DNA from: a virus
IMG/VR virus record: IMGVR_UViG_3300046479_000005
Span: 1 to 21,709 of that record
Direction: 5' to 3' (one strand)
Length of the DNA stretch: 21,709 bases
Shown: positions 1,922 to 12,266 of the stretch, in pieces
Numbering within the stretch: the stretch's first letter is position 1
Layout of the letters: each line of letters begins with the position of its first letter
Position numbers and translations under genes: made by a program
The notes under the pieces: generated by a model
Seen by the model: only the letters and a program-made list of their open reading frames with translations
Told to the model about the DNA's origin: nothing
Database searches by the model: none

Positions 1922-4867
1922 ATGTCTGGTGCAGTCTCGACCTCCGCAGGTGGCGTCACGCCCGTTCTGTTCGCGCCGATATGCAAGATCGACGAAGAGC
2001 AGCGCATGGTCTTCGGGTACGCGACGACGCCAACCCGCGACCAGAGCGGCGAGGTCATAACGCTCGACGCGGTCAAGAAAGCTCTTCCGGAATATCTTGA
2101 CTGGGGTTGCGTGCGCCAAATGCACCAGCCGTCCGCAGTTGGGACAGCGGTCGAAGCGACGATCGACGGCAAAGGTCTGTGGTTTGGCGCCTATGTCCAG
2201 GACGATCAGGCGTGGGCGAAATGCAAGCCGACAAAGCTTGCTGATGGAACCGAGCTGCCGGCCGTCTACAAAGGATTTTCGGTTGGCGGCCGCATCACGG
2301 ATCGCGACCCGGACGACAAGCGCACGGTGACCGGCATCGACCTGGTCGAAATCTCGCTTGTCGATCGGCCATGTAACCCTGACGCTCGGATCGATATCGT
2401 CAAGGCGGACGGTGCCGCCCCCGCGGAACCGCTGGCGAAGTTCCTGGGCTGCGGCCCGGAGCCGCTCGGGAAGGCCGGCCACCGCCTCTATGGCGGCACC
2501 TTCGCGACCCGTGACGCGCTGCGCCAGGAGGTGCTGACCCACGCCGCCGAGCACGACGCCGCGGCCGAAAAGGCCGAGCAGGCCGCCACGCATCACCGCA
2601 CCCGCCGCGCCGCCGCCGAAACCGGGGCCGACGCCGTGGGGATCACGGTTCACAGCCATCTGGCCGACGCCAACGCCGCGCTGGCCGAACACCACCGCAA
2701 CGCCGCCCGCAACTATCGCCGGCTGGCGGCCTCGCTGGCGTCCGGCGGTTCCAAGGAGGTTCAAATGCCTGACAACATCCTCGCCGAGGCCGAGGCCGCA
2801 CTCGCCAAGATGACGGCGGCGATCAGCTCGGCCAACATCGAGGGCATCACCGCGCTGACCGAGATCCAGGCCGCGCATGGCAGGGCTGTCGAGGAGGACG
2901 CCGCGGCCATCGCGGCCATCGCGGCCGCCACACAGGCCCGCGCCACCGCCAACGCGAAGCGCGCCGACGGCGACAAGGACCAGGCCAAGCACGCCGACGC
3001 CGAGGCCGAGGCGCACGAGACCGCGGCCCAGCATCACCACGACGCCGCCCAGAGCTACCACGATCTCGTGGCGGAGCGGATCAAGACGGTGCCGTCGGAC
3101 TCCGCGCACGGCGCCAACGAGGACGGCAATCTCGGCAAGGCGGCCGGCGGCGCTCGTATCGCGCTGTGCAAGGCCGCGGCCGATCACTGCACCGCCCACG
3201 CCGAGAAGTGCGGGAAGGCAGCCGGCGAGTACGACGCTTTCGCCGAACGGGCCAAGACCGACAGCCGCACCGAGGACGCCGCAGGCCATGCGAAGTTCGC
3301 CGGTACGCTGCGCCAGGTCGCGGATGCCCGCAAGGCGATGGCGAAGAGCTTCACCGATGCGGGGCTTCCGGATCTGGCGCAGCCGACGCAGAAGCGTGCC
3401 GTGAAGCCGCTCGCCAAGCTGACGAAGTCGGCCGACGGGACGTGGCTCGACAAGCACGGCGTGTACTTCGGCAAGCGCGACTTCACGGACAAGCAGCGCC
3501 AGGATGCGGCCGACGCTGGCCACGCCATGGAGGACGGCAGCTTCCCGATCGAGACCGAGGCCGATCTGGAGGACGCCGTCTCGGCGTTCGGCCGCGCCAA
3601 GGACAAGGACAAGGCGAAGGCCCACATCACCGCCCAGGCCAAGCGCCTGAAGGCCACCGACAAGCTGCCCGAGGACTGGCCCGGCAGCACCAAGAAGAAG
3701 GGCGGCACGGCGACCAAGGGTGCCGGCGTGACGGTCGATCAGGCCCATCCCGAGCCGCATCCCCAGCAGGATAACGCGGTGCTTCCTACCGGCGAGAGCG
3801 AGGCAGACCGACGCGCGCGCAAGCTCGCCAAGGCGGCCCGGAAGGCCAAGAAGCTGGCCAAGGCCGCGCGCTGGGTGGCCAGGGCCGATCGGCTTGTCAA
3901 GGTGCGGGCTGCGCAAGGTCAGTCGCAGCCGCTGGCCAAGGCTGCCAAGACCTGCCCGGCCTGCCATGCCGAGATCAAGGATGGCGACACCAAGTGCGCG
4001 GCCTGCGGCGGCGCCCTCACCAAGGCGGCGACGATGCACAAGAGCATGGGCTTCATCGCGTCTCTGGCCAGCACCCTGACTGGTATCCGATCGCTGCAGC
4101 ACGACTATCAGCGCGAGCAGTCCGCCGAGGGCGACACCGATCCAGACGCCGTCAAGCTGGTCGAGCAGCTTCACGAATGGCTGGCGTCCGGCATCAAGCT
4201 CCTGGAAGACGTCGTGGCCCGCGAGGCGACGGAGTTCGGCGAGGGCAAGGACGTCGAGCGCATCTGGACCGGCGACAGTAATGGCCCTCAGTACGTCACG
4301 CTCGCGGCCCCGACCTGGATGCGCGATCTCGCCGGCGTGCTGCGGGCCAGGGCCGAAAAGCCGGTCCCGAAGGACGTCCGCAAGCTCCGCAAGGCGCTGG
4401 CCGATTCGCTCGACAAGGCAGCGCCCGAGATGGAGCGCCTCGCGACGGCAGATCGTCCCACGGCAACCGGTACTGGTTCCGGCAGCCAGGCGCCTGCTGC
4501 CACGACCACGACCGATCCGCGATCCGAGAAGCTACTTCGCAGTATCGTGGGCCAGGTCGCGCCGCTGGTGAAGGCGACCCAGGACATGCGGGCCAGCCTG
4601 ACCACGGCCAACGTCGAGATCGCTACGCTCAAGAGCAAGATCGCCAAGCTCGAGGGCGAGCCCGTGGTGACGCCGCTCCGGCACGCCTCGCGGCCGGCCG
4701 GCAGCGCCGTCACCAAGACCGCGGACGGCGGCGCGATCAGCGCCGGTGGTGGTGCCACGGATCCCGCTCCGCAGTCGGCGCTGCTGCAGAAGGTGCTCGC
4801 GGTTCCGGCCGGCCCGGAACGCGCCGACGCGTTGCTGCGCGAAGCCTACCTGTCGACATCGAAATAG
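1922..4867 (+). CDS. XkdF-like prohead protease fused to scaffold-like region
   Basis: This 981-residue protein follows the minor head gene by 5 bases. Residues about 10-165 match the XkdF-type phage serine protease family: a GYATTPTRDQSGEVI opening, a candidate catalytic histidine at 68 (MHQPSAVG), a candidate serine at 120 (YKGFSVGG), and the VEISLVDRPCNPDA motif. Residues about 180-490 are Ala/His-rich helical segments, as expected for a scaffold. Residues about 520-588 hold a compact domain (FTDKQRQDAADAG, DGSFPIE, FGRAKDKDKAKAHI) seen in other phage proteins. C678, C681, C692 and C695 form a zinc ribbon, followed by a helical region and a coiled-coil tail. The protein is far longer than stand-alone prohead proteases. 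An in-frame internal start at 2765 probably yields a separate scaffold. Expected role: capsid assembly and cleavage of head proteins. Confidence 0.85.
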   Translation: MSGAVSTSAGGVTPVLFAPICKIDEEQRMVFGYATTPTRDQSGEVITLDAVKKALPEYLDWGCVRQMHQPSAVGTAVEATIDGKGLWFGAYVQDDQAWAKCKPTKLADGTELPAVYKGFSVGGRITDRDPDDKRTVTGIDLVEISLVDRPCNPDARIDIVKADGAAPAEPLAKFLGCGPEPLGKAGHRLYGGTFATRDALRQEVLTHAAEHDAAAEKAEQAATHHRTRRAAAETGADAVGITVHSHLADANAALAEHHRNAARNYRRLAASLASGGSKEVQMPDNILAEAEAALAKMTAAISSANIEGITALTEIQAAHGRAVEEDAAAIAAIAAATQARATANAKRADGDKDQAKHADAEAEAHETAAQHHHDAAQSYHDLVAERIKTVPSDSAHGANEDGNLGKAAGGARIALCKAAADHCTAHAEKCGKAAGEYDAFAERAKTDSRTEDAAGHAKFAGTLRQVADARKAMAKSFTDAGLPDLAQPTQKRAVKPLAKLTKSADGTWLDKHGVYFGKRDFTDKQRQDAADAGHAMEDGSFPIETEADLEDAVSAFGRAKDKDKAKAHITAQAKRLKATDKLPEDWPGSTKKKGGTATKGAGVTVDQAHPEPHPQQDNAVLPTGESEADRRARKLAKAARKAKKLAKAARWVARADRLVKVRAAQGQSQPLAKAAKTCPACHAEIKDGDTKCAACGGALTKAATMHKSMGFIASLASTLTGIRSLQHDYQREQSAEGDTDPDAVKLVEQLHEWLASGIKLLEDVVAREATEFGEGKDVERIWTGDSNGPQYVTLAAPTWMRDLAGVLRARAEKPVPKDVRKLRKALADSLDKAAPEMERLATADRPTATGTGSGSQAPAATTTTDPRSEKLLRSIVGQVAPLVKATQDMRASLTTANVEIATLKSKIAKLEGEPVVTPLRHASRPAGSAVTKTADGGAISAGGGATDPAPQSALLQKVLAVPAGPERADALLREAYLSTSK
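2753..2760 (+). promoter_or_regulatory. Strong internal ribosome binding site inside the protease gene
   Basis: AAGGAGGT is a near-perfect anti-Shine-Dalgarno complement. It ends 4 bases before an in-frame ATG at 2765 (Met282 of the long protein). It is stronger than the site in front of most other genes here. The position, between the protease domain and the helical scaffold region, fits a nested start like that of lambda Nu3 inside gene C. Confidence 0.75.
2765..4867 (+). CDS. Nested scaffold protein from internal in-frame start (predicted)
   Basis: Translation from ATG 2765 would give 700 residues (MPDNILAEAEAALAK onward) that share the C-terminal part of the protease fusion but lack the protease. 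The supporting signal is the AAGGAGGT site with ideal spacing. Content is Ala-, Glu-, His- and Lys-rich helix, then the DGSFPI/GRAK domain, the four-cysteine zinc ribbon and a coiled coil near the end. Lambda C/Nu3 is the established precedent for a protease gene that produces its scaffold from an internal start. Placement directly before the capsid gene supports a scaffolding role. That both products are made is an inference; the long form alone could also be the only product. Confidence 0.6.
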   Translation: MPDNILAEAEAALAKMTAAISSANIEGITALTEIQAAHGRAVEEDAAAIAAIAAATQARATANAKRADGDKDQAKHADAEAEAHETAAQHHHDAAQSYHDLVAERIKTVPSDSAHGANEDGNLGKAAGGARIALCKAAADHCTAHAEKCGKAAGEYDAFAERAKTDSRTEDAAGHAKFAGTLRQVADARKAMAKSFTDAGLPDLAQPTQKRAVKPLAKLTKSADGTWLDKHGVYFGKRDFTDKQRQDAADAGHAMEDGSFPIETEADLEDAVSAFGRAKDKDKAKAHITAQAKRLKATDKLPEDWPGSTKKKGGTATKGAGVTVDQAHPEPHPQQDNAVLPTGESEADRRARKLAKAARKAKKLAKAARWVARADRLVKVRAAQGQSQPLAKAAKTCPACHAEIKDGDTKCAACGGALTKAATMHKSMGFIASLASTLTGIRSLQHDYQREQSAEGDTDPDAVKLVEQLHEWLASGIKLLEDVVAREATEFGEGKDVERIWTGDSNGPQYVTLAAPTWMRDLAGVLRARAEKPVPKDVRKLRKALADSLDKAAPEMERLATADRPTATGTGSGSQAPAATTTTDPRSEKLLRSIVGQVAPLVKATQDMRASLTTANVEIATLKSKIAKLEGEPVVTPLRHASRPAGSAVTKTADGGAISAGGGATDPAPQSALLQKVLAVPAGPERADALLREAYLSTSK

Positions 4868-4977: not shown

Positions 4978-6600
4978 ATGGCAACCCGCGTCGTCCAGCC
5001 CCGGGATGCGGTGATCGACCGCTTCCAGGCGACCATCAATGGCACGTCGGCCCCGGACAAGAACCGCATCGGCTACATGTCCCGCAAACGCGCCGCCCAT
5101 ACGCTCGATCTCTTCAAGGCGTCGTTCGGCAACCCGATGACCGACGACCAGATGTCGGACTCGCTGCGCAAGAGCGTGTCGGTCGCAACCGGCCTCACCT
5201 ACTACGATCTGCGGGCCCCGGCCATGAACCTGTTCCCGACCGTGACGCCGATCCGCAACAGCCTCGCCAGGATGCAGCGCGAGCATCCCGGCGAAGCCGC
5301 GCACTGGAAGGCGGTCGTGAACACGATCGGCTCCGGCCAGCCCTTCATGGGGTGGGTCCAGGAAGGCCGGCGCAGCGCCTCGATGTCCTACGTGACGTCC
5401 AACAAGTCCCTGTCCTACATGACGCTGGGCGAGGAAGACAGCATCACCGAGGAAGCCCGCTTCGCGGCCGATGGCTTCGAGGACGAGGATGCCCTCGTGC
5501 AGCTCCGGCTGCTGCTGCGTACCTTCATCAAGGAGGAGGCCGGGCTGATCGGCGGCGACAACTCCCTGCCGCTCGGCACTCCGTCCGCCCCGACCCTTGG
5601 CGCCTCCGGCTCCACGGCAACCCTTCCGGCCGGCACGTACAGCGTCATCGTGGTCGCGCTGACCCAGGAAGGCTACCTGAACTCCTCGCTCAGCGGCGGC
5701 ATCGCGCAGGCGCTGACGATCACCGGCAACGATGCCCGCACCTATGTCCTGAACGGCGGCTCCTCGAACAAGTCGCCGAACACGACGCAGCCCATCACCC
5801 TGGGCCAGGCGCTGACCGGCGCCGAGACGCCGGTCACGGGTGCCGTCGCCTATGCCTGGTTCGTCGGCGTGGCCGGTCAGGAGACCCTGCAGGCCATCAC
5901 CACGATCAACAGCGTCGTGTTCTCGGCGCCGCTGACCTCCGGCCTGCAGCCCGCCGCCGCCATCACCGCGGACTGCAGCACGAACCAGAGCTACGCCTTC
6001 GACGGCTTGCTGACCTGGGCGTTCAACCCGTCCAGCGGCGCCTACGTCAACACGCTCCCGACCGGTACGGCCGGCACCGGCACTTTCCTGACCAGCTCGG
6101 GCGCCGGCGGTGTCAACGAGATCGACACCATGAACAAGGCGATGTGGGACAACTCTCGCCTCAGCGCCACCGTGATCTACGTCAATAGCCAGGAACAAAA
6201 GAACATCACGGCGAAGACGCTGAACGGCGCCTCGGCCCCACTGCTGCGCTACAACCAGGAAGTCGATGCCGAGGGTGGTGCCGAATACAAGGTCACGGCC
6301 GGCGGTGTCGTCAGCTACTACTTCAACCCCTACACCCCGGACGGCGGCGTCAAGATTCCGATCAAGATCCATCCCAACCTGGCGGCCGGGACACTCCTCG
6401 GCTGGGCCGAGCATCTGCCGCCATGGTACGTGTCGAACGCCGTGCCGGAGTGCGCTGTCGTGCAGACCCGGCAGGATTACTACAGCGAAATCTGGCCGAA
6501 GGTTTCGCGCGAGCAGTATTACGGCTGCTACTCGCAAGAAGTTCTTGCCGTTTACGTGCCGTTCGCCATGGGCCTCCTGACCAACGTCGGCAACGGCTGA
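4978..6600 (+). CDS. Major capsid protein with Ig-like insertion
   Basis: This 540-residue protein has a GAGGAG ribosome binding site and sits directly after the protease/scaffold gene, the usual place for an HK97-fold major capsid protein. Residues 1-195 look like the N-terminal arm, E-loop and spine region (RKSVSVATGLTYYDL, NLFPTVTPIRNSLAR, a glycine-poor helix with many acidic residues). Residues about 198-336 (from GTPSAPTLGASGSTATLPAG to ITADCSTNQS) form a Ser/Thr/Gly-rich beta-type stretch with the look of an Ig-like domain. The fold resumes from about 340 to the C-terminus (EIDTMNKAMWDNSR, VSREQYYGCYSQEVLAVYVP). The insertion explains why it is longer than ordinary capsid proteins. The family call rests on order and general pattern rather than a single diagnostic motif. 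Confidence 0.82.
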   Translation: MATRVVQPRDAVIDRFQATINGTSAPDKNRIGYMSRKRAAHTLDLFKASFGNPMTDDQMSDSLRKSVSVATGLTYYDLRAPAMNLFPTVTPIRNSLARMQREHPGEAAHWKAVVNTIGSGQPFMGWVQEGRRSASMSYVTSNKSLSYMTLGEEDSITEEARFAADGFEDEDALVQLRLLLRTFIKEEAGLIGGDNSLPLGTPSAPTLGASGSTATLPAGTYSVIVVALTQEGYLNSSLSGGIAQALTITGNDARTYVLNGGSSNKSPNTTQPITLGQALTGAETPVTGAVAYAWFVGVAGQETLQAITTINSVVFSAPLTSGLQPAAAITADCSTNQSYAFDGLLTWAFNPSSGAYVNTLPTGTAGTGTFLTSSGAGGVNEIDTMNKAMWDNSRLSATVIYVNSQEQKNITAKTLNGASAPLLRYNQEVDAEGGAEYKVTAGGVVSYYFNPYTPDGGVKIPIKIHPNLAAGTLLGWAEHLPPWYVSNAVPECAVVQTRQDYYSEIWPKVSREQYYGCYSQEVLAVYVPFAMGLLTNVGNG

Positions 6601-9944: not shown

Positions 9945-12266
9945 ATGAGCTTTTTCCATGGCATCACGATCACCGAGACGCTGGCCGGTGGCGTGTCGAT
10001 CCAGTCCGTCAAGGCTGCGGTCATCGGCCTGGTCGGGTCGGCGCCAAGCTGGGACGTCCAGTCCGGCACCCCGCCCGCCCCCAACCAGCCCATCCTGGTC
10101 AACAGCAAGTCGGCCCAGAGCATGTTGGGGCCGATGATCGAGGGCTACTCGATCCCGTACGCGCTGCAGCACATCCTCGACCAGGCCGGCGCCAAGGGCG
10201 TTGGTCAGGTCATCGCCGTCAACGTCTTCAATCCGCTGATCCACAACACCCAGGTCAGTGGTCAGACGCTCGCGATGCCGGCCAGCGGGACCCAGTACGT
10301 CAGCGTCGGCCACATGGGCCTGATCGGCCCCGGACTGCCCAACACGCCGCTCAGCACCGCGGCCGTCGATGTCGTCGCGACACCGGGTGGCCAGACGAAC
10401 CACAGCTATGCCCACGGCGACACCGTGACGCTCGCGGGCGGGACCCCCAGCACCTCCATGATCCCGGCGACGGTCCTGACGGTAGCGTCCACGCAGATCG
10501 TCTCGCTCGGCCTCAACGCCCCGGGCGGCGCCGCCACCCACAGCTATGCGCCGGGCGCCGGGATCGTGCTCGCGGGCGGGACCTCGACGGTCGCGGGCCA
10601 GGTCACGGTCGATACCACTCAGGTCGTGTCCGCCACCATAGCGGCGGGCGGCACCGGTGGCACCAACGGCACCCAGACCGTCACGGGCACGACCGGCTCC
10701 GGCACGAAGTTCCAGGCCAGCGTGACCGTTTCCGGTGGCGCCATCACGGCGGTCGGGTCCATCTCGGTGGCCGGCGCCTATACGGTCAACCCGACCACGT
10801 TGACCGACGAGCCGGTGACCGGTGCGGGCCTGACCGGCGCCGCACTGTCGCTGGTCATGGGCGTCAACACCTTCTCGGTCGTCAATCCGGGCAAATACAC
10901 GGCCAACAGCGCCACCTTCACGCAGGCCAGCAGCAGCGGCGCGGGGACGGGCGCTACCTTCAACGCCGCCGTATTCGGCATCCTGGCCGCTACCGTGTCG
11001 ACCGCCGGCTCCTACACGGCAGTGCCAGCCAATCCGGTTGCGCAGGCCAGCAGCAGCGGCGCGGGGACGGGCGCTACCTTCAACATGACCTGGGCCGGCC
11101 CCCCCAGCACCGTCGTGGTGAAGGCGGCCGGCGGATCGCCGACCTACGTCGAGAACACCGACTATACGGTCGATTACGTCAACGGCCTGATCTATGCCGA
11201 GTCCGGCGGTGCCATCGCGCCGAGCCTGGCCCTCTCGGTTTCGTACGCGTACTGCGATCCCTCGCAAGTCCAAGACTCCGACCTGATCGGGGCCGTGACG
11301 GGCGGCCAATACACGGGCATGCAGGCGTGGCAGCTCGCAATGAGCAAGTTCGGCTTCACGCCGCGGATCCTGATCGCGCCCGGTTATGCCGGCAACGCCG
11401 GCTCGCAGGATCGGCCCGTAGCGTCCGCCCTGGAGGTGATTGCCAACACGCTGCGCGGGATCTCGCTCGATGATTCCGCGCCCAATGTCAGTGTCGCGAC
11501 AGCGCTGGCAAGTCGTTCGGACACGACCACAGCCTTCGGGATCACGGATTATCGGGTCGGCCACTGCTTCCCGTGCGAGAAATTCGAGGATCTGGGTATC
11601 GATCCGACCGCCACGATGATCAACGCCGCGGGCGTGGTCGTGAATCCCGTGGTCGACGCCACGGCCGAGGCCCCGTATTCCGCCCTCGTGGCTGGGGCCT
11701 GGTCGTCCAGGATCGTCAACAATGGGTTCTGGTACTCGCCCAGCAACACCGTGCTGACCGATCCGACCGGCCCCGACGTGCCGATCTACATGTCCGCGAC
11801 CGATCAGGACAGCGACACCAACAACCTGAACGCGGCCGGGATCATCACAGTCTTCAACGCCTTCGCGACCGGCTTGCGGACCTGGGGCAACCGGTCGTCC
11901 GCATACCCGACCTACACCGACGCCAGGACATTCCTGGCCGTCCGGATGGTGCTCGACGTCATCGAGGTATCGATCCAGCAGGCCAGCCTGCAGTTCGTCG
12001 ATCTGCCGATCACCAGCGGCTTGATCAACTCGGTGCTGGGCTCGGTGAACGCCTATCTGCGCGACGTCATCCGGCAGGGCGGCCTGCTGCCGGGCTCCAA
12101 GATCTCGTTCAACTCGGGCGATAACCCCGCGACCCAGCTCGCGGCCGGCATCATCGTCTTCGCGATCAACCTGATGCCGCCGCCCCCCGCCGAGGACATC
12201 ACCTACAACTTCACGGTCGACACCTCGCTGCTGAACAGCCTGACGTCCTCGCAGTCCTCCACGTAA
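9945..12266 (+). CDS. FI: Contractile tail sheath protein with large repeat-rich insertion
   Basis: A GGAGG site precedes ATG 9945. The 773-residue product is a P2 FI-like tail sheath subunit. The N-terminus (MSFFHGITITETLAGGVSIQ, then AVIGLVGSAPSWD) and VIAVNVFNPLIHNTQV are typical. The conserved C-terminal half includes YVENTDYTVDYVNGLIYAES, MQAWQLAMSKFGFTPRILIAPG, GLRTWGNRSSAYPTYTDART and the last subdomain. P2 FI itself is about half this length. Residues about 125-385 are an insertion rich in Gly, Ser, Thr and Val, with paired repeats: HSYAHGDTVTLAGG against HSYAPGAGIVLAGG, and QASSSGAGTGATFN twice. This part probably projects from the sheath surface. The next gene encodes the tube, as in P2. 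Confidence 0.93.
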   Translation: MSFFHGITITETLAGGVSIQSVKAAVIGLVGSAPSWDVQSGTPPAPNQPILVNSKSAQSMLGPMIEGYSIPYALQHILDQAGAKGVGQVIAVNVFNPLIHNTQVSGQTLAMPASGTQYVSVGHMGLIGPGLPNTPLSTAAVDVVATPGGQTNHSYAHGDTVTLAGGTPSTSMIPATVLTVASTQIVSLGLNAPGGAATHSYAPGAGIVLAGGTSTVAGQVTVDTTQVVSATIAAGGTGGTNGTQTVTGTTGSGTKFQASVTVSGGAITAVGSISVAGAYTVNPTTLTDEPVTGAGLTGAALSLVMGVNTFSVVNPGKYTANSATFTQASSSGAGTGATFNAAVFGILAATVSTAGSYTAVPANPVAQASSSGAGTGATFNMTWAGPPSTVVVKAAGGSPTYVENTDYTVDYVNGLIYAESGGAIAPSLALSVSYAYCDPSQVQDSDLIGAVTGGQYTGMQAWQLAMSKFGFTPRILIAPGYAGNAGSQDRPVASALEVIANTLRGISLDDSAPNVSVATALASRSDTTTAFGITDYRVGHCFPCEKFEDLGIDPTATMINAAGVVVNPVVDATAEAPYSALVAGAWSSRIVNNGFWYSPSNTVLTDPTGPDVPIYMSATDQDSDTNNLNAAGIITVFNAFATGLRTWGNRSSAYPTYTDARTFLAVRMVLDVIEVSIQQASLQFVDLPITSGLINSVLGSVNAYLRDVIRQGGLLPGSKISFNSGDNPATQLAAGIIVFAINLMPPPPAEDITYNFTVDTSLLNSLTSSQSST
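10921..11084 (+). repeat. 44-bp perfect direct repeat within the sheath insertion
   Basis: Bases 10921-10964 recur identically at 11041-11084, an offset of 120 bases (40 codons, in frame). Each copy encodes the end of a glycine-rich module (QASSSGAGTGATFN). Perfect identity at the DNA level, including third positions, suggests recent duplication or gene conversion rather than protein-level constraint. Confidence 0.9.

Follow-up and report, generated by a model that had tools for sequence, protein, structure and literature searches.

The fused protease gene and its surroundings

The window, by which we mean the whole 21,709-nucleotide stretch of viral DNA analysed here, carries a 981-codon gene whose product begins with an S78 prohead protease domain and continues into a long scaffold-like part; the major capsid protein gene starts 110 nt 3' of this fused gene, and no separate scaffold gene was found between the two in the window (Table 1). 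The gene at 3-1916, upstream, whose start may fall outside the window, encodes a fusion of two domains, one of an inorganic pyrophosphatase (PF18823, E 8e-38) and one of the Mu F-like minor head type (PF04233). Further downstream, the tail sheath protein at 9945-12266 is 773 aa long, against 496 positions in the usual sheath family profile, contains repeat insertions and also matches a family of tail proteins that have an Ig-like domain.

Table 1. Positions in the window of the fused gene, its parts and the capsid gene.
Feature	Positions	Strand	Basis
Fused gene, 981 aa, S78 prohead protease then scaffold	1922..4867	+	
Peptidase_S78 domain, residues 28-163	2003..2410	+	Pfam PF04586, E 2e-8
First helical hairpin, residues 197-272, 5' of the nested start	2510..2737	+	Structure model
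Disordered interdomain linker, residues 273-286, bearing the nested start	2738..2779	+	pLDDT 33-50, without secondary structure
Shine-Dalgarno AAGGAGGT	2753..2760	+	Sequence and anti-SD duplex energy
Putative nested start codon, ATG, Met282	2765..2767	+	Sequence; homologue comparison
Putative nested scaffold ORF, 700 aa, frame and stop in common with the protease gene	2765..4867	+	Counterpart: separate L035 gene
Conserved small domain within the nested ORF, residues 511-587	3452..3682	+	Sequence comparison
Zinc-ribbon-like CxxC..CxxC, residues 676-697	3947..4012	+	PF13248, 18.1 bits, sub-threshold
C-terminal coil and tail, residues 866-980	4517..4861	+	Aligned with L010, L013 and L053 ORF2
Major capsid protein gene	4978..6600	+	Position and homology, phrog_13692, E 3e-90

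The protein matches the S78 profile PF04586 with 35 bits against a cut-off of 21, and its match to TIGR01543 reaches 25 bits against an equivalog cut-off of 59; of S78, S49 and PF10123, S78 is the sole protease family matched. His68 and Ser120 are invariant across the aligned homologues. The small domain (KRDFTDKxR...DGSFPI...GRAKD), for which no Pfam model was matched at 3452-3682, is common among the protease and scaffold proteins of phages. The C-terminal coil and tail are presumed to be the capsid-binding end of the scaffold. An earlier note on this DNA had proposed a nested product of 700 residues with a zinc ribbon and a further small domain; the length of the reading frame (700 codons) and the small domain hold, but the zinc ribbon stays below threshold in Pfam (about 18 bits against cut-offs of 25-27, that of PF13248 being 27), and a similar CxxC..CxxC motif is present in the related proteins L035, L170 and L171 and missing in L010 and L013.

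From the AlphaFold2 model of the 981-residue protein, which is poor overall (mean pLDDT 57, pTM 0.25), the linker and hairpin boundaries alone were used. The model places the protease at 15-147, a disordered segment at 150-195, a confidently predicted helical hairpin at 197-272 (block pLDDT mostly 83-92), a disordered linker at 273-286 with Met282 inside it, behind the hairpin, and further helices after that. Since residues 208-270 and 322-384 also form an internal repeat (36.5% identity, E 2e-8), a start at Met282 would not directly follow the protease, and the protease side would keep one of the two helical copies. The first description, which put the start right at the junction of protease domain and helical region, is inexact, because the protease ends at about residue 163 and the hairpin precedes Met282.

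The second in-frame start and its conservation

The region at 2745-2800 reads ...GGC GGT TCC AAG GAG GTT CAA ATG CCT GAC AAC..., in which the Shine-Dalgarno (SD) string AAGGAGGT is separated by the spacer TCAA from ATG 2765, codon 282 of 981, which is in frame with the start at 1922 and lies 281 codons downstream of it. The strong ribosome site reported inside the 981-codon gene is there as described: the string is an 8/8 SD match, and its anti-SD duplex of -11.9 kcal/mol ranks first among all 554 ATGs of the window, both strands counted, with other tested window starts being weaker (capsid -8.4, sheath -9.5). The outer start at 1922, located 5 nt past the upstream stop codon, has a duplex of only -2.4 and almost no ribosome-binding match. 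Among 1212 in-frame internal ATGs in 200 control phage genes taken from related loci, none reaches -11.9 or 8/8, and the RNA at the nested site is within the most open 2.6% of positions of the window gene. The AAGGAGGT string alone is weak evidence and no proof of selection, because Lys-Glu-Val forces it in a GC-rich gene: 66% of synonymous draws with the gene's codon usage yield an equally strong site (P 0.66). It therefore falls to the homologues to decide.

Direct searches returned near-identical copies only, including one in the MAG Acetobacteraceae bog_930, and the clonal copies L001-L004 give no test of conservation, since they have 0-2 differences in the gene and none at the site. Divergent relatives were obtained through capsid-gene and alignment searches; no closer homologues of the window were found among the 1186 genomes searched, and a PDB sequence search returned nothing useful. 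Four divergent homologues have the same fused architecture, namely L010 (41% identical to the window over the gene), L013 (38%), L170 and L171, and the five fused genes are about 33-50% identical to each other over the aligned parts. All four carry, behind the first hairpin, an in-frame ATG preceded by GGAG or GGAGG. The junction is AAGGAGGTTCAA-ATG in the window, TCGGAGAACCCT-ATG in L010 (GGAG only, SD rank 3 of 17 in-frame ATGs), ACGGAGGATGTG-ATG in L013 (rank 1 of 25), TCGGAGGATGAC-ATG in L170 (rank 1 of 21) and GAGGAGCACGTTGAC-ATG in L171 (rank 1 of 26), so that the nested ATG is the top in-frame ATG of its own gene in the window, L013, L170 and L171. The residues preceding the Met vary (SKEVQ, LSENP, PTEDV, GSEDD, EEHVD). 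The Met of L010 and L013 aligns exactly with Met282; in a mechanical multiple alignment the Met of these two other homologues, L170 and L171, is displaced by a few columns, but the flanking hairpin and following helix correspond by eye to those of the window. Loss of the SD-ATG pair in homologues, which the earlier note had named, for close ones, as an outcome that would speak against a nested gene, was not what this comparison found, the pair being kept in L010, L013, L170 and L171.

SD strength in the window, L010 and L013 exceeds that of GC-rich control ATGs (Fisher P 4e-5). The fraction of positions as open or more than the site is 2.6%, 5%, 5%, 42% and 17% in the five fused genes (combined P 0.006, or 0.027 without the window). 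A synonymous test across the homologues without the window is borderline (P 0.054), and because a Glu codon is common or nearly common to the homologues at the site, protein constraint could explain part of the GGAG-ATG pattern.

In one relative, L035, protease and scaffold are separate genes. Its protease gene, of about 302 codons, ends in ...HHRSLATKPD* at the point matching ...YRRLAASLASGGSKEVQ in the window, and a second ORF begins about 150 nt past that end at ATG 3121, with the start ggaaggagaaaggact-ATG and the ribosome site GGAAGGAGAAAGGACT 5' of it. Because the second protein contains the small domain (34% identical to window residues 488-642, E 1e-21) and also a zinc ribbon, it is the counterpart of the putative nested product. 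As the split in L035 falls at the homologous point, the boundary at Met282 is a real module boundary, and the idea of a nested scaffold gene gains support both from this split and from the GGAG(G)-ATG found at the equivalent junction in divergent fused genes. L053 is likewise split, but later, behind the small domain.

Internal starts in other S78 protease genes

We then scored in-frame ATGs behind the protease in a wider set of 81 non-redundant S78 ORFs. SD matches of at least 6/8 occur before 20 of 592 post-protease ATGs, as compared with 8 of 1212 control ATGs (Fisher P 3e-5, with relatives counted as independent). ORFs with tails of at least 250 aa have an SD of at least 5/8 in 19 of 51 cases, and a strong internal start is found in none of the 15 ORFs with a tail below 150 aa. 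In an unrelated S78 family (L057, L066, L069, L077 and L082) AGGAGG-ATG lies 10-11 residues past the protease; L034, L036, L133 and L135 keep AGGAG or AAGGAG before an ATG ahead of a helical scaffold; and further unrelated families provide other clear cases (L107, L091, L089). We discounted the NPEAVFTM motif of many short S78 genes, which places GGAGG about 11 nt before an ATG, as forced by the protein.

Cultured phages show the same pattern, with a nested start at codon 255 in NootNoot (-12.5) and at codon 162 in Thermoanaerobacterium phage THSA-485A (8/8 SD); neither record has a nested gene annotated. The THSA-485A S78 gene (L147 2468-4453) has two full AAGGAGGT sites, one before codon 162 (ATG) and one before codon 343 (GTG). 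In a set of 12 Stanwilliamsviridae that share 58-100% identity with NootNoot, the SD is kept at -12.5 to -13.5, the nested start codon is ATG or GTG only, despite the Met-to-Val change, and in Sham AAGGAGGT stands in a different codon phase. Although these phages are distant from the window, their pattern speaks more strongly than any other for selection on a nested S78 start. In the Streptomyces phages of this family (L146 2459-3736, L149-L159) the nested start lies unannotated in the capsid maturation protease gene.

A dual-start reading, its alternatives and its precedents

We consider it probable that 1922-4867 is a nested, dual-start protease/scaffold gene that works like lambda C/Nu3 and Mu I/Z, and the phage very probably makes the scaffold on its own too. 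The inner frame shares its reading frame and stop with the outer one, has its own ribosome-binding site and a conserved start, and belongs to a gene with an N-terminal head protease 5' of the capsid gene. By analogy with lambda and Mu, the weak start at 1922, where initiation is perhaps re-initiation behind the upstream stop, would draw few ribosomes and give a small amount of the full-length S78 protease-scaffold fusion, and initiation at the strong AAGGAGGT-ATG 2765 would give much more of a protease-free, 700-residue scaffold ending at the same stop. Because both products would have the C-terminal coil, the fusion could co-assemble with the scaffold, recruiting the protease into the procapsid, where it would then degrade the scaffold.

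The internal site might instead be a relic of gene fusion, in which once-separate genes lost the intervening stop and kept an old scaffold start that is left over, with mainly the fusion being used and cut by its own protease, as in P2 gpO. This we regard as unlikely. L035 does offer the two-gene form, split at the point equivalent to Met282, and the short-tailed S78 fusions without a strong internal start suggest that fusion-only forms are viable, but a relic should decay, whereas GGAG-ATG persists in five fused genes that share only about 33-50% identity and have changed the surrounding residues, and the Stanwilliamsviridae start swaps between ATG and GTG only.

Slightly less likely still is a coding coincidence, namely that the codons for Lys-Glu-Val and a following Met resemble a ribosome site by chance because the gene is GC-rich. 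The ease with which synonymous draws rebuild the site agrees with this, and so does the chance occurrence of SD-like strings upstream of internal ATGs elsewhere, both in other genes and within the small-domain motif DKERQxMA, which yields them in L013 and L029. Coincidence accounts poorly for a site that recurs at this position in four homologues whose residues differ there, first-ranked in three of them, for the open RNA structure at the site, for the equivalent gene boundary in L035 and for the absence of any equally strong site among the control ATGs. It is very improbable that the true free scaffold is a more usual one of 277 residues starting at Met705, which we rejected because this site, although the second best in the window gene (-6.7) and the start of a domain common to other alphaproteobacterial S78 fusions, matches only 4/8 SD bases, and the corresponding Met of L013, L053, L127, L129 and L130 lacks a canonical SD.

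For the dual-start gene favoured here, the lambda C/Nu3 pair suggested at the outset is an apt precedent, and Mu I/Z is an equally good one. In lambda, gene C is overlapped by Nu3 (Shaw and Murialdo 1980, cited in PMC8508860). In the lambda GenBank record nu3 is annotated inside C, and, as in the window, the scaffold is encoded in frame by the 3' part of the protease gene, with the same stop and 5' of the capsid gene; lambda C, however, is an S49 protease and its scaffold has at most 201 aa, compared with an S78 protease and a 700-aa nested product with further domains in the window. The best in-frame internal site of lambda C (L143 419-1738) is at codon 309 (AGGAGG), and the annotated nu3 start, codon 239, scores poorly, which makes lambda a less clean positive control than Mu. 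There, Z is annotated as starting inside I, and its start is the best internal site (AGGAG). Pseudomonas Mu-like phages also have a scaffold start inside the protease gene, with a putative SD (PMC4378225). Mu I/Z resembles the window in its weak outer and stronger inner start, but Mu I belongs to PF10123 rather than S78, and Z has 183 aa and lacks both a small domain and any zinc ribbon. The three proteases thus fall into three Pfam families. HK97 has an S78-type protease, as does the window, but its scaffold is the delta domain of the capsid protein, and P2 gpO combines head protease and scaffold in one gene, as in the window. No nested start is described for P2 in the available text of PMC8508860.

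With lambda and Mu as precedents, the kind of gene is known. The open-access papers searched do not describe a nested start for any S78 protease gene; the S78 setting, which looks unreported and is mostly unannotated, and the predicted 700-residue product, with its additional domains, are the variant aspects. We also lean, with more reserve, towards the broader view that nested scaffold starts are widespread and largely unannotated in long S78 (HK97-type) protease genes, that S78 is a third such family besides S49 and Mu I, and that fused, nested and split forms interconvert. If so, the scaffold would go unrecorded in many phage genomes that have a large gene labelled "capsid maturation protease", and the protease:scaffold ratio would be set by two ribosome sites within one gene. 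The presence of this arrangement in three protease families would mark the co-assembly of protease and scaffold, by way of a C-terminus common to both, as a solution that recurs. As Stanwilliamsviridae grow in laboratory Streptomyces hosts, the nested start would be directly testable there.

A separate annotation matter concerns Brevundimonas phage Strzyga (L145 2441-4015), in which a CDS is annotated on the strand opposite an open S78 protease frame, probably in error.
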